DNA of 21,816 bases from Chloroflexota bacterium (GTDB lineage: Bacteria; Chloroflexota; Limnocylindria; Limnocylindrales; CSP1-4). How positions within the stretch are numbered: position 1 is the stretch's first letter; every line of letters begins with the position of its first letter. The position numbers were made by a program, and so were the translations under genes. The stretch lies in the NCBI GenBank assembly GCA_021786915.1, contig JAJYMP010000363.1:1-21816 (forward strand), written 5' to 3'. The notes under the pieces were generated by a model, which saw only the letters and a program-made list of their open reading frames with translations, made no database searches and was not told the DNA's origin. Positions 3-19,104 of the stretch are shown here, in pieces.

Positions 3-728
3 GCGCAGGCACGGCTCCGCCGACTCTGGGAGTGGGGCTACCTCGAGCGCGCGACGCTCCCACCGGCCGGTCCTCGGGGTGGCGCTCCGCTCGCCTACCG
101 CCTGTCGCCGGCCTGCCGTCGCCGACTCGGCTACCGACGCAGCCCGTGGCGCGGTCCCGGCTACCTCGCCCACACGCTCGACGCTGGTGAGGCAATCTGC
201 GCCCTCGTCCGGACGAGCGACCCGGACACCCGCCCGATCGTCCAACTCTGGCTCCCCGAGTCGATCGTCGCCGACGCCCTTCCAGATGGACCGGTCGCCG
301 ACGCGGTCGTCGTCCTGTCCGGAGAAGCGGGATCGGCCGTCATCTGTCTCGAGATCGACGAGTCGACGCAACACCTGGCACCGATTCGCGAGAAGCTCCG
401 AGCGTATCGACGGACTATCGGCGGACGGTCCGGCTGGCACGTCCTGTTCGTCGTCCCGACCGTCGCGCGACGAAGATGGCTGCGCCGGATCGCCCGAGCC
501 CAGGACCCTGGAACTGCCTCAGCCTGGGTGGTGACGATGGACGATCTTCGCAGAGGCGGAATCGATGCGCGGCTCATGCCGATGTTCGGTCCGTCGGCGC
601 GGTCGACGATCAGACCGCTCCTCGCCGACGAGCAGCCTCGCCGGTCGGCCTCGCCGGTCGCCAGCCATGCGTGGCTCGAGCTTCTGGGGTCGGGTGGTGG
701 CGAGGACACGGATAACGTGCTCCGGTGA
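3..728 (+). CDS. Replication-relaxation family protein, C-terminal part (5' end outside window)
   Basis: The frame is open from the first bases to a TGA at 726-728, so about 241 C-terminal residues are visible and the start lies upstream. The first residues (ARLRRLWEWGYLERATLPP) look like the end of a winged-helix domain. They are followed by an AYRLSP segment, a HTLDAGEAICALV stretch, a VICLEIDESTQ strand, a helix (REKLRAYRRTI) and a WHVLFVVP strand ending in an arginine-rich turn. This order is typical of the replication-relaxation (PF13814) family, found on plasmids and integrative elements and thought to help start replication or transfer. The assignment rests on pattern recognition; the winged-helix N-terminus cannot be checked here. 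The stop codon sits inside a palindrome (724-735). If the assignment is right, the left edge of the window is probably part of an integrated or plasmid-derived element. Confidence 0.7.
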   Translation, partial: AQARLRRLWEWGYLERATLPPAGPRGGAPLAYRLSPACRRRLGYRRSPWRGPGYLAHTLDAGEAICALVRTSDPDTRPIVQLWLPESIVADALPDGPVADAVVVLSGEAGSAVICLEIDESTQHLAPIREKLRAYRRTIGGRSGWHVLFVVPTVARRRWLRRIARAQDPGTASAWVVTMDDLRRGGIDARLMPMFGPSARSTIRPLLADEQPRRSASPVASHAWLELLGSGGGEDTDNVLR

Positions 729-741: not shown

Positions 742-844
742 CTGATCTCGGCCGTCCAGCCGAGCGGCCGTCTGGGCATCGCGGGCCTCTGCGGGCTGGG
801 TATGATTGCGCTTCAACTTCGGCCAGCGCAGGGAGGGGCCGGTC

Positions 845-1399
845 TTGCCGGGCAAGCTCGAGATCGCCGAGCTCCATAGGTTTCATCCTGGAGTGCCCGA
901 GGCGCAGTCAACCTACTACACCAGCGCTGCGGCGGTGTGCCTGCATCGACACCACACATCACCCAAACCCGTGATGGTCACCCTCGACACCGCGAGTGAC
1001 TCATACGATGCCGAATGGAACGAACCCACTGCGGCCGAGACACGCGGCCTGGCCAACAAGGACGAGGCGACGCGCGACGGGGCGTACTGCATCGCCCTGG
1101 CTGCGGCTCACGCTCACCTCCAGCGCATCGCGTTGCGGCGCTCCGAGGGGCTGACCGGAGCCGATTGGTACCTCGTCCCTTCGGACGCCGAGGTCGGCGA
1201 TGATCTGGAAATGGACCTCGAGCGCACCGACATCGTCCGTCTCGAGGTGTCGGGCGTCGACCTAGACGACGATGCCAAGATGCTGGGCCGACTGAATGAG
1301 AAGCTCCGCCAAGCCCGGAAGGGAAAGTCGGCCTTCCCGGCCTATGCTGGCGTCGTCGGCTTCCGCGGCGCTCGGGTCCAATTCGCGAAGGTGCTGTAG
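845..1399 (+). CDS. Hypothetical protein, first gene of an abutting pair
   Basis: I do not recognise this family with certainty. The longest open frame starts at a TTG at 806, but the TTG at 845 has a strong ribosome-binding site (GGGAGG at 831-836, 8 bases before it) and is preferred; this gives 184 residues. The protein is mixed alpha/beta, with a helix-rich segment (DGAYCIALAAAHAHLQRIALRR), then GADWYLVPS and RLEVSGVDL about 26 residues later, and a final strand AYAGVVGFRG. The G-x-D ... L-E-V-S-G spacing faintly recalls PD-(D/E)XK nuclease cores, but the usual lysine is a serine, so this is only a hint. The stop is directly followed by the GTG of the next gene, so the two are almost certainly co-transcribed. 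Confidence 0.6.
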   Translation: MPGKLEIAELHRFHPGVPEAQSTYYTSAAAVCLHRHHTSPKPVMVTLDTASDSYDAEWNEPTAAETRGLANKDEATRDGAYCIALAAAHAHLQRIALRRSEGLTGADWYLVPSDAEVGDDLEMDLERTDIVRLEVSGVDLDDDAKMLGRLNEKLRQARKGKSAFPAYAGVVGFRGARVQFAKVL

Positions 1400-2536
1400 G
1401 TGTCGCTCGAGGTACACCGCCGGGCTGAAACCCTCATGGCTGCAGCCGATGCCGCGGTAGCCCAGGGCCGGCACGAAGACGCACAAGGACTCTACCGCGA
1501 GGCGGCAAACGCCGAAGCCGAGGCGTATGGGCTGATCCCGGCAGATCGGGTGCGAACCAGAGGCGTGCTCGCCGTCAGCGCTGTGGCGCTTTATCGCAAG
1601 TCGGGTGACCCGGCCGAAGCCCTGCGGCGGGCCTACTTGTATCTGGCCGAACCGGATCTGCACGAGGCCGCCCGTGAGGACCTTGAGGACCTACTCGGAG
1701 ACCTACGGGCCGAGCAACTTGAACGTGTCAACGGGCGGGCCCTAGGACCCGATTGGTTCGAGTGGCGGCTCGCCGGACCGAACGTGGGCAAGGGCACCGC
1801 GCCGCTGCCACTCGTTGCTCAGAAGATCGACCAGATCCAGAAGTACGCGACCAGGGTCTACGAGTTCGTCGCCGGCATGCCAATCCGCATGCACGGACCC
1901 GTGGATGAGTCCGTCCGCGAGGGCATGGAGCTGGTGATGAGCCAACCAGCCGCCGGCAGTTTCAAGTTCTCGCTCCGACTCTCGGTGCCTCAGGAGCAGA
2001 TGGCACTTTTCGTAGAGTCCGCAGCGGTGGTTCCGGAGCGGGTCGGAGATGTCTTCTTCCGTGTCCTTGAGGCCACGGTGGACGGTGACACCAGCCAACT
2101 CGAGCAGACTGTTCCTGCGCCCGCGTACCAGGACGCGTTCATGCGCCTGGTCCGGAACCTCCTTCCCGATGGCAAGGACCTCAGCGAGATCGAGGTTCGC
2201 CGTCAAGGAACCGACTCACCCGTGGCTGCGGTTCTAAGGCCCGTCCTGCGCGGCCCTCTGGACAGGCGCATCAAGGCCCGCCGGCCGCCACGAGACACGA
2301 CGCAGAAAGAGACCACGCGAGTCGATGTGCTCCGCGGACTCCAGCTGAACAAGCATTGGATTGTCCTCGGCACCGAGGATCGTGAGCGCTTCTGCTGGGA
2401 TGACGGCGAGGTAGTGCTCGAAGACGCGGTCGAAGGTCTCGTCAATCACCGTGTCCGGGTGACGGGGCACATGAAGGGCAAGCGGTTCGTGATCGAGGAC
2501 ATCGTGGCGGCCGATCCGGACGAGCCAGACCAGTAG
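1400..2536 (+). CDS. Hypothetical protein with TPR-like N-terminus and small beta C-terminal domain
   Basis: The GTG start immediately follows the stop of the preceding gene, giving 378 residues. Residues 1-105 are alanine-rich paired helices (AETLMAAADAAVAQGRHEDAQGLYREAANAEAEAYG and a second unit around residues 55-85) resembling tetratricopeptide hairpins. The middle region (about 140-300) is mixed alpha/beta with a regular strand pattern around 188-200. The C-terminus (about 305-372) looks like a small OB/SH3-like barrel, containing HRVRVTGHMKGKRFVIEDI. The family is not recognised. Tight coupling to the upstream unknown gene suggests the two products work together. There is no signal peptide or transmembrane segment, so the protein is probably cytoplasmic. 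A defence or mobile-element role would fit the neighbourhood but is not shown by the sequence. Confidence 0.65.
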   Translation: MSLEVHRRAETLMAAADAAVAQGRHEDAQGLYREAANAEAEAYGLIPADRVRTRGVLAVSAVALYRKSGDPAEALRRAYLYLAEPDLHEAAREDLEDLLGDLRAEQLERVNGRALGPDWFEWRLAGPNVGKGTAPLPLVAQKIDQIQKYATRVYEFVAGMPIRMHGPVDESVREGMELVMSQPAAGSFKFSLRLSVPQEQMALFVESAAVVPERVGDVFFRVLEATVDGDTSQLEQTVPAPAYQDAFMRLVRNLLPDGKDLSEIEVRRQGTDSPVAAVLRPVLRGPLDRRIKARRPPRDTTQKETTRVDVLRGLQLNKHWIVLGTEDRERFCWDDGEVVLEDAVEGLVNHRVRVTGHMKGKRFVIEDIVAADPDEPDQ

Positions 2537-3249
2537 CGGCAGTTCGGGCATTCCCGATCCACGGTCGTACACAATCTCGTACACATCTGGCATTGACCCG
2601 ACCCTGCCCTTAGCGCACGCTGCGATCGGGTGGCTGAGGCCAGAGGATGCGTACCTGAGCGCTTCAGCCGCCCGCCACGTTCGATGGTCGAACGGGCAGC
2701 GAGCTCCCCGGCACGAGCTCCCGCGGCAGATGCCGTGATCGGTCCAGCGCCGGCGTTCGGATCCTCTGCGGTCCGCGACGACTGAAGCACCTTACCAACC
2801 ACACAGCGCTGCCAATCGCGCGCACTTTGATGCGTGCGATCGCGCGAGGCGTGCCGCCACCTGGCGCTGGCGGAGTCCGGCCGGGATACGGCCGTCGCGA
2901 GGAACACTCCTCGACGGTCCGTCCACCGGTCGCCTCCCGCCCATCGTCGGGGCGCGGCGCGACCGGTCTCGGTCTGTCCGGGCGACCTCGCCGACGGCTC
3001 TCTCGTTCCTGATCGGACTCAGGTCTGCGTTCGGGCGGCGGATGACATCCGCGCCGGAACGGAGGTGATGCCCCGAAGGGGTTCGGAAGATGCCGGCGGC
3101 CTGCGCGCCCGCCCGGCGTTCGACAACGTGTTGCGCGCCCAGGACCGGGGCCGATCTCGCCGATCGCATCGAGTGCAGCGTGCCGCGCCTGCGCTCGTCT
3201 GCCTCCGGTCCGCCTGTCGTGCGGCGTTCGACCCACCTGGAGGTTTCTG
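2537..3249. other. 713-base intergenic stretch without a convincing gene
   Basis: Several frames stay open because of the high GC content, but their translations are arginine/proline/serine-rich and lack domain-like patterns. The stretch separates the unknown gene pair from the ubiquitin-like operon and should hold that operon's promoter, though I could not pick a confident -35/-10 pair. Just before the operon is a clear ribosome-binding site (GGAGG at 3239-3243). A 60-codon frame starting at ATG 3068 ends in a TGATG overlap with the modifier gene, but its ribosome-binding site is too close and its composition is not protein-like. Confidence 0.5.
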
Positions 3250-3489
3250 ATGCAGACGATGCAAGCCGCCGAGACGACGAAGGTCATCTACGGCGTCAAC
3301 GAGCTCGAGCTCGATCTGGCCGGCAAGACGGTCCGCGGGATCTGGAAGGTCCTCGAACAGGTCTTCAACATCCCGCGCGACGCGGTCGTGACGGTCAACG
3401 GCGCCCGCACCGACGACGAGTACGTCGTTCGTCCGGGCGACGAGATCGAGTTCCAGAAGGCAGCCGGCGTGAAGGGCCAGGCGGCCTGA
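3250..3489 (+). CDS. Ubiquitin-like beta-grasp modifier, PRTRC protein C-like
   Basis: This 79-residue protein has the beta-grasp pattern: a strand (KVIYGVNELELDL), a helix (VRGIWKVLEQVF), a strand (AVVTVNG), then EYVVRPGDEIEFQKA, the RPGD-x-I-x-F turn common in MoaD/ThiS/ubiquitin-like folds. The start is ATG with GGAGG six bases upstream. Genes for E2-, JAB- and E1-like proteins follow, so it is the likely modifier attached to targets through its C-terminus. It does not end in Gly-Gly. It ends GVKG followed by QAA. From memory, PRTRC system protein C ends in a similar phenylalanine-containing strand plus GTKG, so the glycine at residue 76 may be the mature terminus and QAA a tail removed by the JAB peptidase. 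The fold is strongly supported by context; tail processing is inference. Confidence 0.8.
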   Translation: MQTMQAAETTKVIYGVNELELDLAGKTVRGIWKVLEQVFNIPRDAVVTVNGARTDDEYVVRPGDEIEFQKAAGVKGQAA

Positions 3490-3494
3490 CACGT

Positions 3495-3573
3495 TGGCTT
3501 CGGCCACACCTGGGGGATCCCCGGGTCCGGTGGTGCCGCACGGCACGCCGGGCTCGGGGTCCTTCGGGGGACC
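3495..3573 (+). promoter_or_regulatory. Cluster of small hairpins between modifier and E2 genes
   Basis: The 111-base spacer holds several short inverted repeats: TGGC-TTCG-GCCA (3495-3506), the self-complementary GGGGATCCCC (3512-3521), GTGCC-GCAC-GGCAC (3533-3546) and GGTCC-TTCGGG-GGACC (3558-3573). None is followed by a T-tract. They could stabilise or attenuate the message so that the modifier is made in larger amounts than the enzymes. The ribosome-binding site for the next gene (AAGGAG, 3585-3590) lies just after them. Confidence 0.35.
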
Positions 3574-3600
3574 GATTGCTGAGAAAGGAGCTCCCGTCCC

Positions 3601-4374
3601 ATGCAGTCGCGCACATTCCTGCGCATCGAAGGCGATCTGGTGAGTCTCGTGAGCGAGGTCATCGACCGTGAGGTCGCGCTCCCCGACCTCCTCGCCGAGC
3701 TCACCACCACTCAGGTTCAAGCGAGCCCGCGGCTGCCGACCGGCTGCCGCTTCTGGGTCCGCTCCGGCGCGAACGACCGAACGGTCTTCGTCGTCGAGCA
3801 GGCCCCGATGCGGCGGACGATCGAGTACCACGCGAGCCGACGTTACGACAGCGAGCCGACCTCGCATCGACTCGCCCTGCCGTACGTCGTCTTCGTCGTC
3901 TCGACCTATGGGGAGCAGATCGAGGGCCTCGCGACCTATTTCCGGACGGCGCCCCTGCGCTCGCTCGATGACGCGCTCCTCTGCTCGACCCTGCCGAACA
4001 CGAACGACGATGGGATCGTCTGTCTCGGCTCGGTCCGGGTCAGCGGGGCGACGGTCGGCGAGCGGGTCGACGCGCTGATCGGCGCGTTCTGGGCGAGTCG
4101 CTTCAACCAGGACCTGCGGCGCCATCCGCTCTCGTTCAGCGGTGGCTTCCGGGCCTGGGCGGCCCGCTCGCGACGAGATCCGCTTGCCGCCCTCGCCTTC
4201 GAGTACGACCGCTACTGGCGGACCCTCCGCCAGGTCGTCGCCTCGATGGCCGGGCTCGCGGCGACCGAGCTCCCGGCCGCGACGCCGATCCCCGATGAGC
4301 CCGAGACGTCCGAGGTCCAGACCCCCGAGCCCGCACCGGTCGACGGAGGTGAGGCAGATGTCCTCGCTTCGTGA
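3601..4374 (+). CDS. E2-like (UBC-fold) protein, PRTRC protein B-like
   Basis: This 257-residue protein starts at ATG with AAGGAG ten bases upstream. Its core runs from a strand near 91-103 (LALPYVVFVVSTYGEQIEGL), through TAPLRSLDDALLCSTLPNT (116-134), to DDGIVCLGSVRV (136-147), then a helix ending in FWASRFNQDL and a final W-containing segment. PRTRC system protein B, a divergent bacterial E2-like family, has the same order: a strand with an al/gl turn, T-x-L-x-x-A-P, N-T/V, G-x-V-C-x-G, then FF-x-S-x-F. Cys141 in GIVCLGS is the candidate thioester cysteine; Cys128 is a second, less likely one. The last 35 residues (PIPDEPETSEVQTPEPAP) are a disordered acidic/proline tail. The E2 role is inferred from the motifs and the E1/JAB/modifier neighbours. 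The gene overlaps the next by 17 bases. Confidence 0.7.
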   Translation: MQSRTFLRIEGDLVSLVSEVIDREVALPDLLAELTTTQVQASPRLPTGCRFWVRSGANDRTVFVVEQAPMRRTIEYHASRRYDSEPTSHRLALPYVVFVVSTYGEQIEGLATYFRTAPLRSLDDALLCSTLPNTNDDGIVCLGSVRVSGATVGERVDALIGAFWASRFNQDLRRHPLSFSGGFRAWAARSRRDPLAALAFEYDRYWRTLRQVVASMAGLAATELPAATPIPDEPETSEVQTPEPAPVDGGEADVLAS

Positions 4375-4618
4375 CCACCTCGCGCGGACGCCGGAGATCC
4401 GGCCACGGGCGTTCGGCTCGTTCGTCGCCCCGTTCATCGGCGAGCGGACGAGTGACCTCCCGCCCCGCTACGTCGAGGAGGCGGCGCTCACGGTTCTCGC
4501 CGCGGTGTTCCGCCAGAGCGGGCCGATCCGCGAGCAGCTCGTTGCCGAGCGTCGACGGTTCGATCGGCTCACCGAGCGTGTTCATCGGCTGCCCGAGCAG
4601 CCGAGGGGAGGGGACTGA
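4358..4618 (+). CDS. Small helical protein of unknown function inside the conjugation operon
   Basis: The start is the ATG at 4358 with GGAGG at 4345-4349; a longer upstream frame only shadows the E2-like gene. The 86-residue product has a basic N-terminus (SSLRDHLARTPEIRPRAF), a central GSFVAPFIGERTSDLPPRYVEE segment, a hydrophobic helix (AALTVLAAVFRQ) and a charged, coiled-coil-like helix (REQLVAERRRFDRLTERVHRL), ending PRGGD. It overlaps the E2-like gene by 17 bases and shares one base with the JAB gene (TGATG), so it is translated as part of the operon. It sits in the same region as the small protein F gene of PRTRC cassettes, but I cannot show homology. It is not a beta-grasp fold, so the GG near its end is probably chance. 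It could be a scaffold between E2 and JAB, or a substrate. Confidence 0.7.
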   Translation: MSSLRDHLARTPEIRPRAFGSFVAPFIGERTSDLPPRYVEEAALTVLAAVFRQSGPIREQLVAERRRFDRLTERVHRLPEQPRGGD

Positions 4619-5451
4619 TGTTCCCGATCCTTGCCGCTGGGTCGCAGACCGAGCTGGTCGGTCTGCCGCTCTTCGTCGTCGCCCGCGACGGGCTCTATCT
4701 CCGGAAGCGGACGCTCCTCGGCCTCTCCCAAACGAAGGTCGAAGGGGCGGCCCATCTGCCGCTCGAGCGGGAGTATCTCGACTACGCGCTGCCAGCGATC
4801 CCCGCGGATCTGATGGGGCGGGTCGTCGGGTTCTTCCGCGCCGTCTACCGGCAGCAGCGGACCGAGGCGCTTGTCCTCCTCCTCTGGGAGGGCGGACGCT
4901 TCGCGATCCACGTGCCTGGCCAGAAGGTCACTGCCGCCTCGGTGCGGTTCAGCGTCGCTGAGGCCGAGCTCCCGGCGGGCTCGCGTCTCGTCGGTACGAT
5001 CCACTCCCACGGCGCCTTCGGCGCCGGGGCGAGCTCGATCGACGAAGACGACGAGGCCGAGCTCGACGGGCTCCACGTCGTCGTCGGCGACTTCGATCGG
5101 CGGCGGCAGACCTACTCGGCGGCGCTCGTCGTCGACGGTCGCCGGTTCGACGTCCGCCTGAGGAACGTCCTCGAGCGGCCCCGCCGGCTCATCGAGCCGC
5201 CGGAGGACTGGCTGCGGCGGGTGACGCTCCTGCTGCCGCCCCGGCCGTCGAAGGCGAAGGGTGGGCCAGCCGGGTCGAACGGCGCCACGGCGTCGGTCCC
5301 GGCGAGGCCTGCGGCTCGAGCGAGCCACGTCGATCTCGACGTCGCGCTCGCCCGAGCCGACCGACTCGCCGGCGAGCTCGGGTTGCACCTCTCGTACTGG
5401 CTCGTGCCGGTCTCCGGAGCGAGTCGGGAGGGCGGTGGCGTCGATGACTGA
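4618..5451 (+). CDS. JAB/JAMM metallopeptidase, PRTRC protein A-like (deubiquitinase-like)
   Basis: The 277-residue product starts at ATG overlapping the previous stop by one base. An N-terminal domain (1-75), with FVVARDGLYLRKR near residue 19, precedes the JAB domain (about 78-185). The JAMM zinc motif is complete: His129 and His131 in THIS-type context (TIHSHG), seven residues, Ser139, two residues, Asp142. Glu83 in RTEALVLL is the likely catalytic glutamate. PRTRC system protein A has the same layout, with an ADGLY-type N-terminus followed by an HSHG JAB domain. The likely role is to trim the modifier precursor and/or release it from targets. After residue 190 comes a flexible alanine/proline linker and a C-terminal helix (LDVALARADRLAGELG). 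The last 8 bases overlap the E1-like gene. Confidence 0.85.
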   Translation: MFPILAAGSQTELVGLPLFVVARDGLYLRKRTLLGLSQTKVEGAAHLPLEREYLDYALPAIPADLMGRVVGFFRAVYRQQRTEALVLLLWEGGRFAIHVPGQKVTAASVRFSVAEAELPAGSRLVGTIHSHGAFGAGASSIDEDDEAELDGLHVVVGDFDRRRQTYSAALVVDGRRFDVRLRNVLERPRRLIEPPEDWLRRVTLLLPPRPSKAKGGPAGSNGATASVPARPAARASHVDLDVALARADRLAGELGLHLSYWLVPVSGASREGGGVDD

Positions 5452-6145
5452 GCGGGTCGTGCTGATCGGACTGGGCGGCATCGGGAGCCAGCTCCTGCCG
5501 TCACTTGTCCGATATCTCTCGTTCCGACCCGAGCCGCGGCCGCTCCTCGTCCTCGTCGACGGCGACGCCTACGAGATCTCGAACCGGTCGCGCCAGCTCT
5601 TCCCCGACGAGGCCCTGGGCACGAACAAGGCCGAGGCCTTGGCCCAGCTGTTCCGGGGAAGCGGGCTCGGGATCCAGGCGATCGCCGAGTACGTGCGCTC
5701 CGACAATGTCGGGCTCGTGGTCCGCGAGGGCGACGTCTGTCTCCTCGCGGTCGACAACCACCCGACCCGGGCGCTCGTCGACCGGCACATCGCCAGTCTA
5801 TCGGACGTGACGCTCATCAGTGGCGGCAACGACGAGACCGACGGCAACGTCCAGCTCGTCCGCCGCCGCGACGGGGTGAGCGTCGATGGCTCGCTCACCG
5901 AGATCCACCCGGAGATCGGTCGGGCGGCCGGCTCGGAGGTCACGCCGGGTGCCGGCTGTGCGGCCCTCGCGGCCGAGCGGCCCCAGCTCGTCGTGACGAA
6001 CCTGATGGTCGCGAGCGCGATGCTCAACTGCCTCTGGGCGGTCATCGAGCAGGGCAGCGTCCCCTACAGCGAGGTCTACCTCGACGTCGTCCACAACGTG
6101 GCCCGCAGCCGCAGCTGGGTTCGCGTCCCGGCCGGCGCGCCGTAG
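5444..6145 (+). CDS. ThiF/E1-like adenylyltransferase, PRTRC ThiF-like
   Basis: The 233-residue product starts at ATG inside the end of the JAB gene (8-base overlap). It has the E1/ThiF/MoeB core: a nucleotide-binding VLIGLGGIGSQ loop (6-16), VDGDAYEISNRSRQLFP (38-54) equivalent to the canonical D-x-D-x-x-x-SNLNRQ, GTNKAEAL (59-66) with the conserved lysine, and LLAVDNHPTR (100-109). Cys172 in PGAGCAAL is the candidate thioester cysteine; the following PQLVVTNLMVASAMLNCLW helix resembles the matching part of PRTRC ThiF proteins. The protein should adenylate the modifier C-terminus with ATP and pass it to the E2-like protein. It is short, a minimal adenylation domain without extra E1 domains. 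It is the last gene of the operon; a hairpin follows at 6173-6205. Confidence 0.88.
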   Translation: MTERVVLIGLGGIGSQLLPSLVRYLSFRPEPRPLLVLVDGDAYEISNRSRQLFPDEALGTNKAEALAQLFRGSGLGIQAIAEYVRSDNVGLVVREGDVCLLAVDNHPTRALVDRHIASLSDVTLISGGNDETDGNVQLVRRRDGVSVDGSLTEIHPEIGRAAGSEVTPGAGCAALAAERPQLVVTNLMVASAMLNCLWAVIEQGSVPYSEVYLDVVHNVARSRSWVRVPAGAP

Positions 6146-6346: not shown

Positions 6347-7471
6347 TCACGGTGTTTGCTCCGGTGTCGCTTGCCTCCTGGGCCGGCGGCGGCGCGTGCG
6401 ACGGCGCACTGCGGCGATCCGCTTCTCGAGTTCCTCGTGCGCCTGCATGAACGCGTCCCCGGCCTCTCGGTTCAGCGTCATGACCACCTGCATCGACACG
6501 AGCTCCTCCATGCCTGCCCTGGTCGCGAGAAGCTCGACCGTCGCGAGAGCGAGCGAGAACGCGGTGTTCGCGCCCGGATCAGCAAGGTCGCTGTTGCTCG
6601 CGCCGGCGAGGAGTATGTCCTGCTCGTCGTCGACGCCCATGACGTTGAACAGAGCACGCGGACCGGCATGCACGTTCTGGCTGGCCCACCGACCGTAGGG
6701 CCGCCAGTGAGCGAGATCGGCAGCGTTCTCGATGTCACGGAAGGTGGGTCGCGGTTTGCCGAGAGCCTCGGCCGCCCAGCCCCACTCCTCGCCGTATGGC
6801 GCCCCGAAGCGGGCGATCAGCGCGTTGCGCTCGGCCCTCATCTGGGCCACCTCCTCGTCGCTGAACGGAATGTCACCGAGGCGATCGGCGAAGAGCTGGT
6901 AGTCCAGCAATCCCCGCCACGAGGCGACGGCGTCGTGCAGGAGGTAGCGCTCGGCGAGATCGGGCCCGTGCTCGGCGAGAAAAGCCATGACCACGGCGAT
7001 CTCGTGAAGCGTCCGCCAGCGGGCCAGGGCGCCGCCGGCATGGCCGCTCCGGAGGAGGGAGAACACCTCGTCGGCGACGCGTACAGCGCGGACGTGGAGT
7101 CGTGCCAGCGCGTTGAACAGCGCGTCACCATCGTCACCCTCGGCGGCTGCCTTGTCAGCGTGACGTTCGGTGAACCGCTCGCCCGCCTCGCGAGCCGAGA
7201 CGAGCAAGGCCTCGAACCGATCGAACGCCGGACCCCATGGATCGCGGAGCCGGATCTCGAAGCCCGCCCGGAGTGCCGCGTAGTCGATGAGCATCGCCGG
7301 CGTCGCGGCGTGGAGCTCCTCGACGACCGACTCGGCGGTCGCGCGAGCGGTATGCACGAGCAGGTCCCGAAGCTCCTCCTCCCCGATGTCGGGCTTCAGG
7401 CGCTCGATCGTCTCGACGATCGCGTCCTCGAACATGTCCTTCGGCGGTTCTCGCCGGCGACGTGACGGCAT
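6347..7471 (-). CDS. DUF5677-like hypothetical protein
   Basis: A 374-residue protein read convergently to the conjugation operon. I prefer the ATG at 7471 (PSRRRREPPKDMF); a GTG at 7489 would add six residues, and neither has a clear ribosome-binding site. The protein is almost all helical. Its centre (ALARLHVRAVRVADEVFSLL, then GGALARWRTLHEIAVVMAFLAEHG and DLAERYLLHDAVASW) matches the pattern I associate with DUF5677: an ARWRTLHE helix followed by AERYL-x-H. The C-terminus (AAVRRRTRRRRPRRQ) is strongly basic and may contact nucleic acid or be disordered. The function of DUF5677 proteins is unknown; they often occur as single genes in accessory DNA. No catalytic motif is visible. Confidence 0.65.
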   Translation of the reverse strand: MPSRRRREPPKDMFEDAIVETIERLKPDIGEEELRDLLVHTARATAESVVEELHAATPAMLIDYAALRAGFEIRLRDPWGPAFDRFEALLVSAREAGERFTERHADKAAAEGDDGDALFNALARLHVRAVRVADEVFSLLRSGHAGGALARWRTLHEIAVVMAFLAEHGPDLAERYLLHDAVASWRGLLDYQLFADRLGDIPFSDEEVAQMRAERNALIARFGAPYGEEWGWAAEALGKPRPTFRDIENAADLAHWRPYGRWASQNVHAGPRALFNVMGVDDEQDILLAGASNSDLADPGANTAFSLALATVELLATRAGMEELVSMQVVMTLNREAGDAFMQAHEELEKRIAAVRRRTRRRRPRRQATPEQTP

Positions 7472-7611
7472 GCAGGAACGGTAGCCCACCCAGCGAACGC
7501 GCGGGACGCGATGGCCAGGGCCGAACAGGCCCTTGTTGCAGGCGAGGCCATCGAGCAGGGCGAGACTCGCCTGCAGAAACGAACGTACTATGGTCCAGAA
7601 CGCGCGGTTGC

Positions 7612-7639
7612 TTGACAGGAACGCGCGACGTGGTATCTT
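7612..7639 (+). promoter_or_regulatory. Sigma70-type promoter with flanking repeats
   Basis: TTGACA (7612-7617), a 16-base spacer and TATCTT (7634-7639) form a good housekeeping-type promoter 33 bases before the GTG at 7672. The 9-mer GAACGCGCG occurs at 7495-7503, 7598-7606 and 7619-7627. The last two copies flank the -35 box 21 bases apart, about two helical turns on one face of the DNA. They may be a regulator binding site. Confidence 0.55.
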
Positions 7640-7671
7640 CCGCTCCTACGCAAGCAAGCGAGGAGCTCACC

Positions 7672-8163
7672 GTGACCGCCACACTCCAACGTCCGACTCC
7701 GGCGGCGTCGGACCGCGCGGGAGACTTTCCCTTCCGCGAGCGGGTCGACTGGGCGTCGTTCGATGAGCTTGCCAAGCAGGTCGGAAGTGCCGGCTTGCGC
7801 GCCCTTGAGCCGGGCACGCTCGCCCACCTGCAGGTGAAGCGCGACTCGTTCGTCGTGGCCCGCGAAGCGGACTTCCAGCGGCTCGTCGGGATTGCCGCGG
7901 AGGCCGCCCGGCTGTCACAGATGGTACGCAGCCTCGTCGAGGGGATCGACCTGGCAGCCGCCCGCGAGGACCCGCAGCTCATCGCCTGGATGCGCGACAT
8001 GGCGCATCAGATGACCGCCACGCTTGGGCCCGCGAGGACGTCTGTGGAGCTCTTCGCCGCCGACGAGGACGCGCCGGAGGAGGCGGTCGAGGGCCCGCCG
8101 ACGCCGCCCGGATCCGAGCTCGACGCGCGCCGAATCCGCGCTGCCCTGTACCCGCGTGGATGA
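7672..8163 (+). CDS. Hypothetical protein, first gene of a coupled pair
   Basis: GTG start with AGGAG (7661-7665) six bases upstream and a promoter at 7612-7639; the longer upstream frame would run through the promoter and is rejected. The 163-residue product is not recognised. It has a tail-like N-terminus (TATLQRPTPAASDRAG), a compact part (WASFDELAKQVGSAGLRAL, then HLQVKRDSFVVAREADFQRL), two helices (VGIAAEAARLSQMVRSLVEG and PQLIAWMRDMAHQMTATLG), and an acidic/proline stretch (DEDAPEEAVEGPPTPPGSE) ending in a short basic helix. The last 8 bases overlap the next gene, implying translational coupling. A small helical protein upstream of a larger partner fits a toxin-antitoxin or regulator-effector layout, but no motif proves it. 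Confidence 0.6.
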   Translation: MTATLQRPTPAASDRAGDFPFRERVDWASFDELAKQVGSAGLRALEPGTLAHLQVKRDSFVVAREADFQRLVGIAAEAARLSQMVRSLVEGIDLAAAREDPQLIAWMRDMAHQMTATLGPARTSVELFAADEDAPEEAVEGPPTPPGSELDARRIRAALYPRG

Positions 8164-8845
8164 GGCGCGTCGTCGTCGCCTGATCGAGGAGGCCGCCCGA
8201 CTCCAGGGGCAGACGGACGCGATTGTCGCGGCGCTTGACGCGTACCTCGCCGGGCTCGACCCGGCAGACCGGCAGCGTGAGGTCAACGCGGTCTGGCTGG
8301 AGCCACCGATCACACGGGCCGAGGCGGTCGCCGCCTACCCGCCGCGATCAGACCACTTCGACGTCCTCCAGGGGGACGTGCTTCGCACGGAGGCGGCGTT
8401 CGTGCTCGGCCACCGTGTCGCGGGCGCCTACGTCGTCGCGTCGGCCACCTGCGATGCCGTCATTCGGCCCCGACCGAGGCGCGGCTCGATCCTTCTCCTG
8501 CCCGTTGTTCCCCGGACCCTCGAGGGCTTCGACGGGACGACGCCGGCGGCCAAGGCGAACGTGGCCGCAAGGCGCCTCGAGCAGCTCCTGACGTTCCGGA
8601 CCACGGGTGCCCTCTATCTGCCGCCGCTCATCGACGACGCCGACGACGTCGTGTTCAACGAGATCCGGTTCAACCACTTCGCCGCGCTCGAGAGCGCGCA
8701 GATCCCGACCGTCCAGCGCGTGCACTCGATGTCGCTGATCGGTTGGCGCGTGTTCGCGGCCCTGCTCCGTCTCGTCATCACGCGAACCGGCGACGAAGAG
8801 GTCGGCTTTCGGCTGGCAGTGGCGGAGCGACGCGCGGCGGGCTGA
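8156..8845 (+). CDS. Hypothetical protein with a conserved-looking Cys-Asp core
   Basis: The GTG at 8156 lies in the sequence GTGGATGA shared with the stop of the previous gene, giving 229 residues; the longer upstream frame is only a shadow. An N-terminal helix (DEARRRRLIEEAARLQGQTDAIVAALDAYL) is followed by a beta-rich core with DHFDVLQGDVLRTEAAFV, AYVVASATCDAVIRPR, SILLLPVVPRTL and RTTGALYLPPLIDDADDVVFNEIRFNHF. The layout QGDV ... a strand ending S-x-T-C-D ... a strand ending in PV-P recalls uncharacterised accessory proteins with a conserved CD motif, whose family name I cannot give. Its Cys/Asp pair could be catalytic or metal-binding. It is co-expressed with the upstream small protein. 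Confidence 0.6.
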   Translation: MDEARRRRLIEEAARLQGQTDAIVAALDAYLAGLDPADRQREVNAVWLEPPITRAEAVAAYPPRSDHFDVLQGDVLRTEAAFVLGHRVAGAYVVASATCDAVIRPRPRRGSILLLPVVPRTLEGFDGTTPAAKANVAARRLEQLLTFRTTGALYLPPLIDDADDVVFNEIRFNHFAALESAQIPTVQRVHSMSLIGWRVFAALLRLVITRTGDEEVGFRLAVAERRAAG

Positions 8846-9294
8846 CGCCTCTCGAAGCCCACACTCGTGCGTTTGCGGTCGGCCTTGCGAGCCACGTTCT
8901 CCTCGTCGATGAGGCGACGGAAGTCGACAGCCGCGGCAATGCTCGGTGCGACCTCCAGCACTGCCTCAAGTTCGCGCCGCAGCGACCCGGCGCCCGCCAA
9001 ACGCGCCGTGCCGGGCTGATGGTCGGGCGCCCCAGCACGACGCTTCCGTCTGGTCTCGAGCTGATTCTCCGTCGACGGACCGGAAAGTGCTGACGGCCCA
9101 GGCTCCTCCTCCTTGCACCGCCCAAACAGCATACCGGTGGGTGATTGTCGGCTTGGCGTCACCTCCTCGTAGGTACCTGCAGGACCGCGTCGCACAAGCG
9201 GGCGACCTGCCGGCTACAGGGCCGTGCTTGATGCCATGAGGGAGCGGGCCTCAACGCAGTCGACACGGGATGGAGCACGGGGACCTCCGCCCGT
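8846..9294. other. 449-base gap between convergent genes, possible coding remnant on minus strand
   Basis: No complete gene is supported here. On the minus strand, roughly 9040 down to 8846, one frame reads like real protein: SLRRELEAVLEVAPSIAAAV, then DFRRLIDEENVARKADRKR and TSVGFERR, with almost every third codon base G or C. The frame continues antisense into the upstream gene, where the translation loses its protein-like character. It has no clear start signal or stop at the right place, so I read it as a possible gene remnant. Confidence 0.25.
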
Positions 9295-10506
9295 TCAAGC
9301 CAGGACCCGCCGCACCGCCTCCAGGTCCGCCCCGATCTCGACGACGCGGCCATGCGGTCGGAGGTAGCGAGGTGTCTTCAGTGCCGAGCCCGTGACGAGC
9401 ACCACGATCCGCTCGGCGGGACCGACGAGGCGTCGCTCGAGGGCCACGAGGAGGCCGGCCAGGGCGGCGGCTCCGGCGGGTTCGGCGAGCACTCCTGCCT
9501 GCGTCGCGAGGAGGCGCATCGCATCGAGCATCTGTTCGTCGCTGACGCTCACGAAGCTGCCGCCGGACTGGACCACATCGCGCACTGCCAGCAACCCGCT
9601 GACCGGGTTGCCGACGGCGATGCCGTCCGCGATCGTGGCTGGCGTCGCCGGGCGCACCCGACCCCCGGTCTCCGAGGCTCGCTTGATCGGTTGGCACCCC
9701 TCGGCCTGCACTCCGATGAGCCGCGGAACGCGGTCGATCGCCTGGCACTCGACGAGCTCTCTGAATCCCTTCGCCATGCCGTTCAGCGTGGGCCCGTCGC
9801 CGACCGGAACCATCACGACGTCGGGGACCCCCCGTCCCAGCTGTTCCCAGATCTCGAGGGCCACGGTCTTCTTGGCCTCGATCGTGGCCGGGTTTACGCC
9901 GGTGTTCCGATCGATCCAGCCGAACTCCCGGGCCGCCGCCCGTGACAGGCGGAAGGCGGCATCGTACCCCTCTCGCACCTTGATCACGATTGCCCCGGCC
10001 TCGAGCATGAACTGAAGCTTGGAGTCGGCGACGTCGGCGGCGACGAAGGTGATGGCTTGCTTGCCCGCGGCGGCCGCACCCACCGCGAGAGAGACGGCAA
10101 CATTGCCCGTCGAGGCGCAGGTTACCCGCTGGATCCCGGTTGCCATCGCCTGCTGGAGCACCAGCGCCGTCGCCCGGTCCTTGTTCGACGCAGATGGTCC
10201 CCGCGTCTCGTCCTTCAGCCACAAGTTTGGCAGGCCGAGCCGCGCGCGCAGGGCCGGTGGCGCGATCAACGGGGTGCCACCAACCGGGAGCGGGTAGACG
10301 ATGGGCCCGTCGTCGAGCGGCAGCAGGCCGCGATACCGCCACATCCCCTCGAGGCTCCAGTCTCCGGACGGGAGGAGCGCCGGACCGTAGTCATAGCCGA
10401 GCTCGACCTGCCCATGGCCATCCCTGACTACGGCCTGGTCGAGGTCCGAGAGGCTTTCCTCCGTCCCGTCGTCGTAAACCACCATCGCGTGCGTCGGCTT
10501 GCCCAC
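9295..10506 (-). CDS. Threonine synthase-like PLP-dependent enzyme
   Basis: This is a fold-type II PLP enzyme. The GTG at 10506 (GGAGG four bases upstream) gives 403 residues; ATG 10485 is an alternative. The frame stays open to an ATG at 10677, but that extra part reads as the tail of another gene in a different frame. PLPVGGTPLI (72-81) and LWLKDE (95-100) precede PSASNKDRA (104-112), where Lys109 is the likely PLP lysine. ASTGNVAVSLAV (131-142) corresponds to the phosphate-binding SSGN loop, and VPVGDGPTLNGMAKGF and LVTGSALKTPRY are typical later motifs of threonine synthase. Most of the family has T-G-S-F-K-D-R at the lysine; the SASNKDR variant and the unusual N-terminus (YDDGTEESLSDLDQ) mean the true substrate may differ, for example another O-phospho amino acid. 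It is convergent with the gene at 8156-8845. Confidence 0.75.
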   Translation of the reverse strand: MGKPTHAMVVYDDGTEESLSDLDQAVVRDGHGQVELGYDYGPALLPSGDWSLEGMWRYRGLLPLDDGPIVYPLPVGGTPLIAPPALRARLGLPNLWLKDETRGPSASNKDRATALVLQQAMATGIQRVTCASTGNVAVSLAVGAAAAGKQAITFVAADVADSKLQFMLEAGAIVIKVREGYDAAFRLSRAAAREFGWIDRNTGVNPATIEAKKTVALEIWEQLGRGVPDVVMVPVGDGPTLNGMAKGFRELVECQAIDRVPRLIGVQAEGCQPIKRASETGGRVRPATPATIADGIAVGNPVSGLLAVRDVVQSGGSFVSVSDEQMLDAMRLLATQAGVLAEPAGAAALAGLLVALERRLVGPAERIVVLVTGSALKTPRYLRPHGRVVEIGADLEAVRRVLA

Positions 10507-10529
10507 GATCCCTCCCAGGTGCCCCTCGA

Positions 10530-10646
10530 TCAGGGTCGGATCCCCCGAGGTGTCCGTACGACTTCCCCCGGGCGCTCTCCCGTCGCCTGGCCGGCTCGAT
10601 GGACCAGGCGCCCCCCAACGAACACGGCGGCGACGCCCGGCGGTGC
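10530..10646 (-). pseudogene. C-terminal remnant of an amidohydrolase (D-aminoacylase-like)
   Basis: Reading the minus strand from about 10646 to the TGA at 10530-10532 gives QAPPGVAAVFVGGRLV, then HRAGQATGERPGEVVRTPRGIRP. The VFV-x-G-R-x-V ... T-G-x-RPG-x-V-x-R pattern is the standard last strand pair of amidohydrolases such as D-aminoacylases and dihydroorotase-like enzymes. Only about 38 residues are left, with no catalytic part and no start. It ends 24 bases before the start of the threonine synthase-like gene, as expected for an upstream operon neighbour cut off when the GntR cluster arrived or the upstream DNA was deleted. Confidence 0.6.
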
Positions 10647-10668
10647 TTGGCGTGGGCCAAGCTTGCGC

Positions 10669-10700
10669 TTGACACATGCGATAACGTTATGACGTTATGA
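10669..10700. promoter_or_regulatory. Promoter/operator region with GntR-type inverted and direct repeats
   Basis: ATAACGTTAT (10681-10690) is a perfect palindrome. AACGT (10683-10687) and ACGTT (10692-10696) form an inverted repeat, and ACGTTATG is directly repeated (10684-10691 and 10692-10699), the second copy containing the ATG of the regulator gene. Such AT-rich repeats stand out in this GC-rich DNA and are typical of HutC-type GntR operators. A TTGACA (10669-10674) lies just upstream, but any well-spaced -10 box would touch the start codon. The site probably mediates autoregulation of the cluster. Confidence 0.55.
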
Positions 10701-11452
10701 CTCTTCCTCTCGGGCGTCCGATCGCGGAGCGCGGGCCCACCCCACTGTGGTTCGAGATTAAAGAACGGCTCCGTCGCGCCATTCTCGACGGCACCTACAA
10801 GGTCGGCGACCGCTTGCCGACTGAAGCCCAGCTAATCGAGCACTTCGGGGTCAGCCGTATCACCGTTCGGACGGCGCTTGACCATCTGGAGCGCGAGCGG
10901 CTCATCGTGCGAGGTTCGGGCAGGGGAACCTTCGTTCGGCTGCCGGTCGTCGAGCAGCCCGTGCATAGCCTTGCCGGTTTCCACGAGGACATGCGCGCGC
11001 GCGGCCTCCAGCCAAGCAGCAACACACTGAGCGTGCTGCCGGTCGCTGGGATGGCCCAAACACGGCGGCGGCTCGCTGTCCTGGGCGACGATCCGCTGCT
11101 ATACGTCGAGCGCCTGCTCCTCGCCGACGACGAGCCGATGGCGCTGCAGCGCTCGTGGCTGCCGCGCTGGGTGCTGGGCGGAGGAAGGCCCTTCACGCCT
11201 GAAGAACTCGACTCCGGCTCCCTGTACGACCTGCTCGACGCGCGCAGCGGTGCGCGACCGGCGCGGGCGGAGGAGATCATCCAGGCCGCGGCGGCAGACT
11301 CGTCCGTGGCGACGTCGCTGGCGATTCCGGTCGGCAGTCCCATCCTGCTGGCACACCGCCTTTGCTTCGATGCCGCCGAGCGGCCGGTGGAGGATGTTGA
11401 CGTCTTCTACCGAGCCGACCGTTACCGCTACCGGGTGGAGCTGTCGCGGTGA
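10697..11452 (+). CDS. GntR/HutC-family transcriptional regulator
   Basis: The 251-residue protein starts at the ATG inside the repeat array, with no ribosome-binding site, so translation may be leaderless or weak. The GntR winged helix is clear: PLWFEIKERLRRAILDGTY (16-34), GDRLPTEAQLIEHFGVSRI (37-55), TVRTALDHLERERLIVR and GSGRGTFV (73-80). The UTRA effector domain (about 90-250) shows VERLLLADDEPMALQRSWLP, AEEIIQAAAADSSVATSLAI and PILLAHRLCFDAAERPVEDV, ending in the typical FYRADRYRYRVEL. It should bind a small ligand, often a sugar phosphate, and release the operator. The kinase gene overlaps its stop (TGATG), so it is the first gene of the catabolic operon and likely controls it. Confidence 0.9.
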   Translation: MTLPLGRPIAERGPTPLWFEIKERLRRAILDGTYKVGDRLPTEAQLIEHFGVSRITVRTALDHLERERLIVRGSGRGTFVRLPVVEQPVHSLAGFHEDMRARGLQPSSNTLSVLPVAGMAQTRRRLAVLGDDPLLYVERLLLADDEPMALQRSWLPRWVLGGGRPFTPEELDSGSLYDLLDARSGARPARAEEIIQAAAADSSVATSLAIPVGSPILLAHRLCFDAAERPVEDVDVFYRADRYRYRVELSR

Positions 11453-12378
11453 TGGCGATCGTCGTCGGCGACGCCGGGCTGGATCTTTCGGTGCGGGTCT
11501 CGCACCGACCGGCGGCCGATGAGAAGGTCCTGACGCACACCGACCTCATGACCGCAGGTGGCGTGGCCGCCAACACGGCCGCAGCCCTCGCTCGGCTCGG
11601 GACGTCGGTCGGCCTGGCAGCGGCGGTCGGCAGCGATTCCTTTGGCCAGCGGGTGGCGACCGCTCTAGATCAGGCTGGGGTCGATCTGCGCTATTTCCGC
11701 CAGCTCCCCACTGAGCGGACGTACTACAGCGTATCGCTGGTCGACGACTCAGGGGAGAAGGGCTTGGTCGTGGTAGCGGTTGGCCGCATGTACCCGCCGC
11801 GCGACTCGCAGCCCGCGGCGCTCCCCGAGGGCGTTAGCTGGCTCCACACCGTGCCGTACGATGCCGACGCGGCGGCGGCTTGGATCACGTTGGCCCGCCG
11901 ACAGGGCGTGCCTTGGTCGCTTGATCTGGAGCCAGCCGCTATCAGTGAGGGGTGGACGCCAGCGCTGCGCTCCTGCCTGGATGGAGCGACGGTCGTCTTC
12001 GTCAACTGGCGCGGCCTGAACCTCATCGCCGCCGACGAGCTAAGCGCGGCGCGCGCCTTGCACGGCCTCGGCGTCGAGACCGTGCTCGCCACTCGCGGAG
12101 CCGATGGATTGTGCCTGTGGCCCGTCGACGGCGACCCGATCGCGGCGCGACCGCCGCGCGTGGAGGTCGTCGACACCACGGGCGCCGGCGATACGGCTGC
12201 CGCTGCGTTCATCCACTACCGGCTCGCGGGAGCCAACCCCGGCGAGGCGACAACCCGCGCCTGCATCGCCGGTGCGCTCGCCTGCCGAGAGCTCGGCGCA
12301 CAGGCGAGCCTGCCCAGCCCCGAGGAGATCGAGCAGATCTACCAACAGCTGTTATCCGGCAGCAGAGGGGAACCATGA
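11452..12378 (+). CDS. PfkB-family carbohydrate/nucleoside kinase
   Basis: The 308-residue protein starts at the ATG overlapping the regulator stop; a GTG three bases earlier is an alternative. The PfkB/ribokinase signature is complete: an N-terminal VVGDAGLDLSVRV strand, the substrate-binding GGVAANTAAALARLG (36-50), AAVGSDSFGQRV (57-68), VNWRGLNLI (184-192), and the catalytic VVDTTGAGDTAAAAF (239-253), where Asp247 is the expected base. It transfers phosphate from ATP to a sugar, nucleoside or similar alcohol; the substrate cannot be read from the sequence. It overlaps the BtpA-like gene by ATGA. Together with the downstream sugar-type transporter it probably traps the imported substrate as a phosphate ester. 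Confidence 0.9.
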   Translation: MAIVVGDAGLDLSVRVSHRPAADEKVLTHTDLMTAGGVAANTAAALARLGTSVGLAAAVGSDSFGQRVATALDQAGVDLRYFRQLPTERTYYSVSLVDDSGEKGLVVVAVGRMYPPRDSQPAALPEGVSWLHTVPYDADAAAAWITLARRQGVPWSLDLEPAAISEGWTPALRSCLDGATVVFVNWRGLNLIAADELSAARALHGLGVETVLATRGADGLCLWPVDGDPIAARPPRVEVVDTTGAGDTAAAAFIHYRLAGANPGEATTRACIAGALACRELGAQASLPSPEEIEQIYQQLLSGSRGEP

Positions 12379-13235: not shown

Positions 13236-13266
13236 CACAGACCTCGACGGAGAAGGAGACGACGGA

Positions 13267-14769: not shown

Positions 14770-14772
14770 CCG

Positions 14773-16550: not shown

Positions 16551-17212
16551 ACGGGCAACCCGTGAGGGTCGGGCTCATCTTTCTGGCCCAGTTTGATGAC
16601 CGCAGCGTGGCGCTGCTCCAGCGCTGCCGGCGTGCCCTCGAGCGCCTTGCCCGTGGGGGATGGCGCCTGTCGATCGACGGGATGGTCGGTCGTCAGGATC
16701 GCGGCGCGGTAGTGTACCGAGCCAGCACCTTCCACGACATCGACTTGTTCGGGGTCTTTGAGGCGCCTGACTGGGCGGCGGCCCTGGAGGGCATGGCGCT
16801 GCTGGAGGCTGCCGGTTGGGGACGCCTCTTCCGCTGCAGTTGGCTGCTCGGACCACGCGATCTGGGACCGACGCCGACCCCCGCTCCGCCGGCTGGAGGG
16901 CTGGGCTTCCTGGCCCTCTGGAACTGGAACGAGGCCTGGCACGCCGCATCGCTTGCCGAGCGTAGCGCCTACGATGTGGACTGCGACATCGCCTTCGGCA
17001 ACGACACTGCCCTGGGTGCCGACCAAGCGGGGCGCTTCTCCACCTCACTGACCAGCGCGTGGGACCACGTTTCGCTGTGGGAAATCACCGATGCCGCCAT
17101 GCTGGGCAGGGCGATGCGCGTTCACGAGGAGGTTCGCGACTTCATGTTTACAGCCTCCAGCCACTACATCGGCTGGGCGATGCCGTTCGCCGACCTGGAG
17201 GATGAACGATGA
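16547..17212 (+). CDS. Hypothetical protein with two dimeric alpha/beta-barrel-like repeats
   Basis: The 221-residue protein starts at the GTG in the GTGA overlap with the permease gene; the longer frame shadows that gene. It contains two related units joined by a proline-rich linker (GPRDLGPTPTPAPPAGG, 102-118). Unit 1 has VGLIFLAQF, a helix, then STFHDIDLFGVFEAPDWAAA (60-79). Unit 2 has GFLALWNWN, GADQAGRFST (157-166) and AWDHVSLWEITDAAMLGRAM (171-190). Each unit fits a ferredoxin-like beta-alpha-beta-beta-alpha fold of the dimeric alpha/beta-barrel type. Unit 2 closely resembles the next gene's product. No family is recognised; it may be an enzyme or ligand-binding protein for the transported compound. 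Confidence 0.7.
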   Translation: MNGQPVRVGLIFLAQFDDRSVALLQRCRRALERLARGGWRLSIDGMVGRQDRGAVVYRASTFHDIDLFGVFEAPDWAAALEGMALLEAAGWGRLFRCSWLLGPRDLGPTPTPAPPAGGLGFLALWNWNEAWHAASLAERSAYDVDCDIAFGNDTALGADQAGRFSTSLTSAWDHVSLWEITDAAMLGRAMRVHEEVRDFMFTASSHYIGWAMPFADLEDER

Positions 17213-19072: not shown

Positions 19073-19104
19073 GGTTCGCCCGGAGTGGGCCGCGCGCCAG
19101 ACGA

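Follow-up and report, generated by a model that had tools for sequence, protein, structure and literature searches.

The window considered here, the whole 21,816-nucleotide (nt) stretch of contig JAJYMP010000363.1 from a Chloroflexota bacterium, carries a compact operon of five genes encoding a ubiquitin-like modifier, an E2-like enzyme, a small helical protein, a JAMM peptidase and an E1-like enzyme. A conserved structured RNA and a promoter-like site adjoin the operon on its 5' side (2593–3249), a region that an earlier sequence-only reading of this DNA had stopped short of. In its gene content the operon falls into class 6d as defined by Iyer, Burroughs and Aravind 2006 (PMC1779556), which corresponds to the conjugation half of PRTRC. 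Comparison with relatives disclosed the gene set, the key residues, the linkage, the conserved RNA structure and the promoter-like site directly in the sequences; the coordinates are collected in Table 1.

Table 1. Positions of the operon, its upstream RNA and other features in the window (aa, amino acids).
Feature	Position	Strand	Remarks
Promoter-like site TTGACC-17-CACGCT	2593..2621	+	TTNNNN-16/17-NANNNT pair ahead of the RNA core, 21/22 loci
Conserved structured leader RNA, ~630 nt, both ends inferred	2622..3249	+	conservation and consensus fold
Two 5' hairpins directly past the promoter-like site	2628..2697	+	folds of individual loci
RNA core segment 1 (covariance model R1)	2699..2836	+	129.8 bits; the window sequence is itself in the model
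RNA core segment 2 (covariance model R2)	3025..3170	+	contains conserved CGGAACGGAGGTGATG
Ubiquitin-like modifier (ThiS-like) gene	3250..3489	+	79 aa; C-terminal end AGVKG-QAA
E2-like enzyme gene (Prok-E2_D)	3601..4374	+	257 aa; invariant Cys141, downstream His175
Small helical protein gene, fast-evolving	4358..4618	+	86 aa
JAMM peptidase gene, N-terminal extension	4618..5451	+	277 aa
E1-like (ThiF family) gene, single-domain	5444..6145	+	233 aa; Cys172
Replication-relaxation protein PF13814, last gene of the transfer module, truncated by the window start	3..728	+	E 5e-11
Two genes (197 and 378 aa), no assigned function, cargo position between transfer module and RNA	806..2536	+	
Serine recombinase, element type	17801-19108	-	37-44% identical over ~247 residues to the element recombinase cluster; 11.7 kb downstream

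Gene set and conserved residues of the operon

All five open reading frames (ORFs) that the sequence-only reading had placed at 3250–6145 are present, and the guanine-cytosine content by codon position agrees with their frames. A gene caller recovered the operon genes with the same ends, its first training having partly used four of them. The overlaps of 17, 1 and 8 nt reported among the last four genes were confirmed, and most relatives show overlaps too, with small variations. That reading had also likened the gene order to the C-(F)-B-A-ThiF part of PRTRC cassettes; the run itself held, and the point to correct is the place of the helical gene, which lies between the E2 and JAMM genes. The genes co-occur in a sample of 26 fetched loci plus the window, some of them truncated by contig ends: the 27 loci with an E2 gene include 26 with the JAMM gene, 25 with the modifier gene and 24 each with the helical and E1 genes. 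The modifier-E2 spacer (3490–3600 in the window) holds a covarying hairpin, of the CCCGGAGCCGG..CCGGCTCCGGG type in relatives, which folds to a similar degree on either strand.

The modifier matches the ThiS family (PF02597, E 8e-4), slightly below the Pfam cut-off. GVKG stands near the C-terminus in 116 of the 120 homologues listed of the 220 found, and three of the four listed ones without it have GIKG, GVNG or GVQG there. GVKG is followed by three residues in 110 of the listed homologues and by one in 3; it ends the protein in 2, and a single homologue has 49 residues after it. A near-invariant glycine with a short variable tail is what would be expected if the neighbouring JAMM peptidase trims the modifier, and processing by a peptidase of this type was predicted for such operons by Iyer et al. 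2006 (PMC1779556).

The E2-like protein of the window matches Prok-E2_D (PF14460) at E 1e-3, again slightly below the Pfam cut-off. Prok-E2_D is matched by 40 of 42 relatives (best E 9e-8), which match no other Pfam family, and PRTRC_B is matched by the same number (best E 1e-6); Cys141 and His175 are invariant in all 42. The structure predicted for the 3601–4374 product is of low confidence (mean predicted local distance difference test score, pLDDT, 64) and gave no match to the ubiquitin-conjugating (UBC) fold, a result that is not counted against that fold. The E2 identity proposed here rests on the profile matches and the invariant Cys and His. Sequence searches of the PDB with the E2, E1 and JAMM proteins gave no match.

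Key residues named for the remaining enzymes were likewise borne out, the counts being taken after a length filter that dropped 2 of 31 JAMM and 6 of 32 E1 sequences and including duplicates of a few loci. The JAMM protein matches Prok-JAB at E 8e-5, slightly below the Pfam cut-off, and E83, H129, S130, H131, S139 and D142 are invariant in the 29 sequences kept. About 100 residues precede the JAB core, with R74 and W90 invariant in the same 29 sequences. The E1-like protein matches ThiF above the Pfam cut-off (E 8e-17), its sole domain to do so; Cys172 is invariant in all 26 sequences kept, and the Pfam scan found no rhodanese domain. The 86-aa protein has no family match in NCBIfam or Pfam, and its predicted model is helical at a confidence too low to build on (pLDDT 64). 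Its median identity is 39% (36 pairs), against 69–72% for the modifier, E2 and E1.

A structured RNA upstream of the operon

The stretch ahead of the modifier gene is 68–85% identical at the DNA level over at least 450 nt between the window and 17 of 22 other distinct loci; three further loci match at shorter lengths, and G038 and G056 gave no blastn match. An alignment of 22 loci revealed hairpins in which both arms change together. RNAalifold assigned this alignment -97 kcal/mol on the + strand and -54 kcal/mol on the - strand, compared with -45 +/- 4.4 kcal/mol for 60 column-shuffled alignments, and the far better fold of the + strand suggests a + strand transcript. Pairs on the + strand comprise 271 G-U versus 35 A-C cells, a lean to + that arises since the pairs were predicted on that strand; the 26 pairs predicted on both strands give 12 G-U versus 7 A-C cells, a count that alone leaves the strand unsettled.

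To what extent the structure carries over between clades was evaluated by applying the structure from clade A (9 sequences) to the others. It was 84.5% paired in clade B (7 sequences; 35–49% when slid), 77.5% in clade C (3 sequences; 37–47% slid) and 67% in clade D, the most distant three sequences (35–45% slid). Double-sided changes lay above the slid versions in B (66 vs 22–54) and D (38 vs 20–32), with no excess in C (22 vs 16–23). The R1 core (139 positions, 32 pairs) has 97% of its cells paired versus 30–42% when slid, and 9 of the 32 pairs show double-sided change, which none of 500 shuffles reached; as this core structure was derived from the same alignment, the cross-clade comparison is the cleaner test.

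The promoter-like pair stands 77–82 nt ahead of the RNA core (67 in L024) in the 21 loci that have it, the remaining locus, L001, having too little upstream DNA. Its pattern was chosen after viewing the sequences, and mononucleotide-shuffled upstream sequences match it in 1%. Directly past it, the two-hairpin fold recurs with sequences that differ between loci (21 folded; L024 forms the first hairpin only), with z values of -1.4 to -5.2 relative to mononucleotide shuffles. Rfam gave no match in the window at gathering score, and in evalue mode (window, L072 and L001) only matches far below the gathering scores; blastn with the RNA against plasmids and phages found no match.

We rejected the region as coding: of 604 pairwise indels, 71 (12%) have a length divisible by three, and ORFs of at least 25 codons share no stop column in more than 11 of the 22 sequences. 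A leader peptide starting from the Shine-Dalgarno-like GGAGGTGATG is also unsupported, its frame being open to the modifier start in 15 of 22 sequences and stopped early in 7, with little shared protein sequence. Another Shine-Dalgarno-like sequence, CGGAACGGAGGTGATG (AAAGGAGGGATG in L072 and L074), lies inside the RNA at 3060–3070 of the window, ~150–220 nt ahead of the modifier start, and does not mark a conserved ORF start.

Because it starts at the promoter-like site and extends up to the modifier start, the RNA is taken most readily as a long leader acting in cis. To our knowledge, no large structured RNA is tied to a ubiquitin-like pathway elsewhere. The stretch could instead act as DNA, as an origin of transfer (oriT), a single-strand origin or a partition site. 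It directly follows the Replic_Relax gene in G038 and L020, the G-U/A-C asymmetry in pairs predicted on both strands is slight, and neither a relaxase nor an oriT turned up elsewhere, no search having been aimed at relaxases. Both the strand difference in folding energy and the near-fixed distance of the promoter-like site ahead of the core speak against a DNA feature, which we regard as quite improbable.

The surrounding element and its distribution

Clustering the genes of the 26 loci and the window revealed a recurring order, of which many loci, truncated by contig ends, show a part only. A VirB4-like ATPase, an SLT+M23 protein, a HerA/TraD-like ATPase and a Replication-relaxation (Replic_Relax) protein are followed by variable genes, then by the modifier-E2-helical-JAMM-E1 run, an AAA ATPase and either a tyrosine integrase or a serine recombinase. 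G038:C2 holds the full set in one stretch: from the upstream end, T2SSE ATPase, TadE, TadE/G-like, RcpC/CpaB, VirB4/TraG, SLT+M23, HerA-type ATPase, Replic_Relax, the RNA and operon, AAA_16, an excisionase-like helix-turn-helix protein and the integrase. The operon is therefore, as far as gene order tells, a backbone module, set between Tad/VirB4-type transfer genes and AAA-ATPase/integrase genes, in a Chloroflexota family of integrative, conjugative-type elements. The link to plasmid or mobile-element biology that had been raised earlier is supported by this setting, and the idea of a stand-alone operon gives way to that of a regular element module.

Two hallmarks of an integrative conjugative element occur in relatives, namely the tyrosine integrase or serine recombinase and a conjugation apparatus (VirB4, coupling ATPase, pilus), the window beginning inside the last gene of the latter. 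Among the Pfam-scanned element genes, which include Replic_Relax, no relaxase was recognised, and no search aimed at relaxases was made. A tRNA gene is present in 11 of 37 stretches. It overlaps the serine recombinase gene in four (L009, L013, L015, L016) and lies ~140–305 nt from the integrase gene in six (L014, L019, L062, L067, L069 and L073, the G038 element), L075 being the exception; the integrase gene is on the reverse strand in L014, L019, L062, L067 and L069. The element VirB4 (E<=1e-40) was found in 12 of 16 operon-bearing genomes versus 2 of 161 others of the class, and in G378, one of these two, it is only 34% identical. In G010:C64 (160000–234400, L060–L063) the transfer module is apparently split: the CpaB-like gene (cluster D28) is separated from VirB4 by ~32 kb of other genes.

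Across 11 elements (up to 55 pairs), the E2, modifier and E1 proteins have the highest median identities of the element proteins compared (72, 71 and 69%). Lower medians were obtained for VirB4 (64%, 3 pairs), SLT-M23 (63%, 21 pairs), JAMM (60%, 55 pairs) and AAA (58%, 21 pairs), and the lowest for the coupling ATPase (49%, 55 pairs), the helical protein and Replic_Relax (35%, 55 pairs). Between L019 and G002C40, E2, E1 and AAA are 86–88% and JAMM 73% identical, the coupling ATPase 43% and Replic_Relax 32%; by these unequal identities, the element modules reassort.

E2 homologues at E<=1e-3 numbered 239, of which the 120 listed are 67–97% identical. Organism names among the listed E2 and modifier homologues, where given, are Chloroflexi or Candidatus Limnocylindrales, and 25 of the 26 loci from the genome-contig scan are labelled Chloroflexi and one Acidimicrobiia. 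The gene occurs in 16 of 177 genomes of one class, that of G002 (a 17th, G461, is a marginal 44-residue match), and in 12 of 400 genomes drawn evenly across the phylum. A search of 17 whole genomes gave four matches each in G001 and G010 and three in G005; the five matches in G017 are fragments of two broken copies, and the two in G014 are one split gene. The broken copies, in L026 and G017:C13 of the Acidimicrobiia-labelled genome, are 71% identical in the best segment and could reflect cross-phylum transfer or misbinning. IMG/VR gave no relatives by E2 alignment or RNA core pattern.

RNA and operon travel together. In the 177 genomes of the class, R1 exceeds 60 bits in 14, all within the 16 that carry the E2 gene, and in none of the 161 others, where no match exceeds 30 bits; 10 of the 14 supplied sequence to the model, and G003, G008, G012 and G016 did not. 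In the two E2-gene genomes without R1, the RNA position falls at a contig end (G007) or on masked bases (G015). Large-scale genome scans with R1 were run with stricter filters. There are two exceptions to the pairing. One of the four G001 copies, L009, lacks R1, and an ORF called there ends 288 nt before the modifier gene begins; G010 has one extra R1-like segment (L022:4427-4559, 63 bits) that has no modifier gene and lies ~4.5 kb upstream of a complete copy. In other loci that have a gene upstream, at least 560 nt separate the end of the nearest such gene from the modifier (the L058 row being an orientation artefact), so that other genes come in upstream of the RNA or downstream of E1 and do not separate the RNA from the modifier. 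An R1 match in G285 (37 bits) was rejected as it falls in a coding region, and two 28-bit matches (G415, G523) were rejected as lying under the error level set by it.

The window itself holds part of one element copy: the end of Replic_Relax, whose identity to its counterparts in relatives reaches 61%, two cargo genes, the promoter-like site, the RNA and the operon. Products of the two cargo genes have only chance-level or weak tetratricopeptide repeat matches and no relatives in the fetched loci. Beyond the operon lie a DUF5677 gene and two genes without family, followed by a gene for a PALP-family enzyme and then by sugar-transport genes in a cluster; neither an AAA ATPase nor a tyrosine integrase like those of the elements was found in the window. 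The DUF5677 gene (6347–7435, - strand, E 1.6e-27) adjoins the operon and stands outside the conserved element order, and the overlapping genes at 7672–8163 and 8156–8845, without Pfam match, are a possible cargo pair. The element-type serine recombinase far downstream suggests that the sugar-transport, PfkB, BtpA and GntR genes (10697–17508) are perhaps element cargo or lie between two elements; 6347–17508 as a whole may be element cargo or chromosome.

Proposed role and comparison with known systems

We propose, with moderate confidence, that this is a class 6d conjugation module in the backbone of Chloroflexota integrative, conjugative-type elements, with a sigma70-like promoter, a ~630-nt leader RNA and a role in the life cycle of the element. 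Its biochemistry, targets, transcription and RNA function are what we infer from sequence. Reversible conjugation of a small modifier is the chemistry that would follow from the protein families. Transcription would start at the sigma70-like promoter, behind which the structured leader RNA would set the timing or the amount of operon product. The JAMM peptidase would trim the short extra tail of the modifier to expose ...AGVKG, E1 would adenylate the terminal glycine and load the modifier as a thioester on Cys172, and E2 would receive it on Cys141, with His175 helping, and attach it to lysines of target proteins. The fast-evolving helical protein may help to choose these targets, and JAMM would take the modifier off again. 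Since the module holds its place between the transfer and the ATPase/integrase genes, in the backbone and not in the variable cargo, its targets are expected within the element life cycle, most likely the element's transfer, maintenance or excision proteins or a conserved host factor needed for these. A trans-acting role of the RNA may also exist; that it works as a partner of the conjugation enzymes (as scaffold, transfer or replication sensor, or target guide), co-inherited with them as a control device of Chloroflexota conjugative elements that form an undescribed family, seems to us doubtful.

Phage defence, suggested in the earlier reading, would have the modifier conjugated to phage proteins as in Bil and the module kept by the elements for host protection. 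The enzyme classes are those of Bil operons and of cyclic-oligonucleotide-based antiphage signalling systems (CBASS), the distribution is sporadic, and PADLOC placed E1 weakly near the BilD and E1-E2 profiles. Against this, the module is fixed in the element backbone and is not among the variable genes. PADLOC recognised no defence system among ten window frames (one judged non-coding), returning only the weak E1 similarity and a chance-level E2 match, and the single ubiquitin-like domain of the modifier and the single-domain E1 are unlike the Bil proteins as described in the accessible text of PMC11354881. The suggestion thus gained no direct support, and we consider defence unlikely. About equally unlikely is an addiction or stability module, in which conjugation to host proteins would be harmful unless reversed by JAMM, which would make losing the element costly. 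The operon does combine enzymes of opposite action, a writer and an eraser, genomes hold up to four copies, and Iyer et al. 2006 (PMC1779556) speculated on such a function; direct evidence is nil, and five genes with a long leader RNA would exceed the needs of a simple toxin-antitoxin pair. A sulfur-transfer or cofactor role, with the modifier a ThiS/MoaD-type carrier and the E2-like protein no E2, would fit the ThiS match, the ThiF/MoeB profiles that E1 also matches, and the poorly predicted UBC fold, and is very unlikely given Prok-E2_D in nearly all relatives, the invariant Cys141, an E1 without rhodanese domain and no sulfur-metabolism gene among the Pfam-scanned window genes.

For the conjugation module with a life-cycle role, which we prefer, the setting narrows what it may do: its place in the backbone is steady, genomes carry it several times over, and conservation is highest there among the proteins of the element that were compared. 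The RNA linked to it offers a second, independent handle (promoter, transcript, structure), and together they make testable what ubiquitin-like operons of mobile elements modify, and when. Much of the diversity of such operons is experimentally unexplored according to Iyer et al. 2006 (PMC1779556). Our literature search brought up neither a report of such elements in this lineage nor one of an RNA leader, and nowhere in it had class 6d or PRTRC modules been put to a functional test, subscription papers being mostly beyond reach; the earlier remark that the lineage is poorly described for such an operon is in keeping with this.

With BilABCD the operon shares a ubiquitin-like protein, E1, E2 and JAMM in a single operon. 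It differs, by the accessible text of PMC11354881, in its single 79-aa modifier versus a Bil protein with two ubiquitin-like domains, in the extra helical gene, and in a 233-aa E1 without the inactive adenylation half of the two-half BilD. Bub operons, also ubiquitination-like and bacterial, are in many cases adjoined by CapW, CapH+CapP or CapK+CapS regulators, and phage protection by them had not been demonstrated, according to PMC13373217. No such Cap regulators were named among the scanned window frames, and a structured RNA lies upstream here.

Related genes are also found on plasmids. A Tolypothrix plasmid operon has related JAMM, E1 and E2_D genes near dnaN and primase (hhalign for E2, P 75, E 2e-5), and Alicyclobacillus and Rubrobacter plasmids carry a related JAMM+ThiF pair, near dnaN in Alicyclobacillus; the Chloroflexota RNA has no blastn match in plasmids. 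By hhalign, E1 aligns with two proteins annotated as PRTRC ThiF, and E2 shows a weak link (P 56) to a protein encoded near one of these; for the modifier and the helical protein, none of the 37 proteins compared as single sequences was a match.

The PRTRC cassette itself (NCBIfam TIGR03734-TIGR03738) is recognisably related, as the sequence-only reading had it: the JAMM, E2-like and E1-like proteins match PRTRC_A (E 1e-7), PRTRC_B (1e-3) and PRTRC_ThiF (4e-14), all below cut-off, with 31.5, 18 and 52.6 bits against curated cut-offs of 101.8, 131.45 and 144.75. The modifier gave no match to PRTRC_C at E<=1 in the window protein, nor in any of 14 operon-bearing related genomes, a weak negative given that the control matched nowhere. 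The absence of a ParB-like gene noted earlier extends to these 14 genomes, none of which has a PRTRC ParB above cut-off; sub-cut-off matches (~residues 5–191 of 555) occur in 13 of them and also in 8 of 14 control genomes. Because the profiles fall far below cut-off and no PRTRC ParB passes in the 14 genomes, the operon is, by these comparisons, a sister variant of PRTRC and not a PRTRC cassette.

In class 6d, Iyer et al. 2006 (PMC1779556) described a small ubiquitin-like protein with a conserved C-terminal Gly, a rapidly diverging alpha-helical protein, an E1-like protein, an E2-like protein with a conserved Cys and downstream His and without the classical E2 His, and a JAB protein whose N-terminal domain has a conserved Arg and Trp. 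The accessible text of that account differs from the present case in holding neither an RNA leader nor an element-backbone role, and its table row names proteobacteria, low-GC Gram positives, cyanobacteria and Bacteroides, without Chloroflexi. The C-terminal-Gly modifier, the Cys/His E2-like protein, the diverging helical protein and the rhodanese-less E1 were all found here, and the JAMM extension has invariant R74 and W90, which may be the Arg and Trp of that description.

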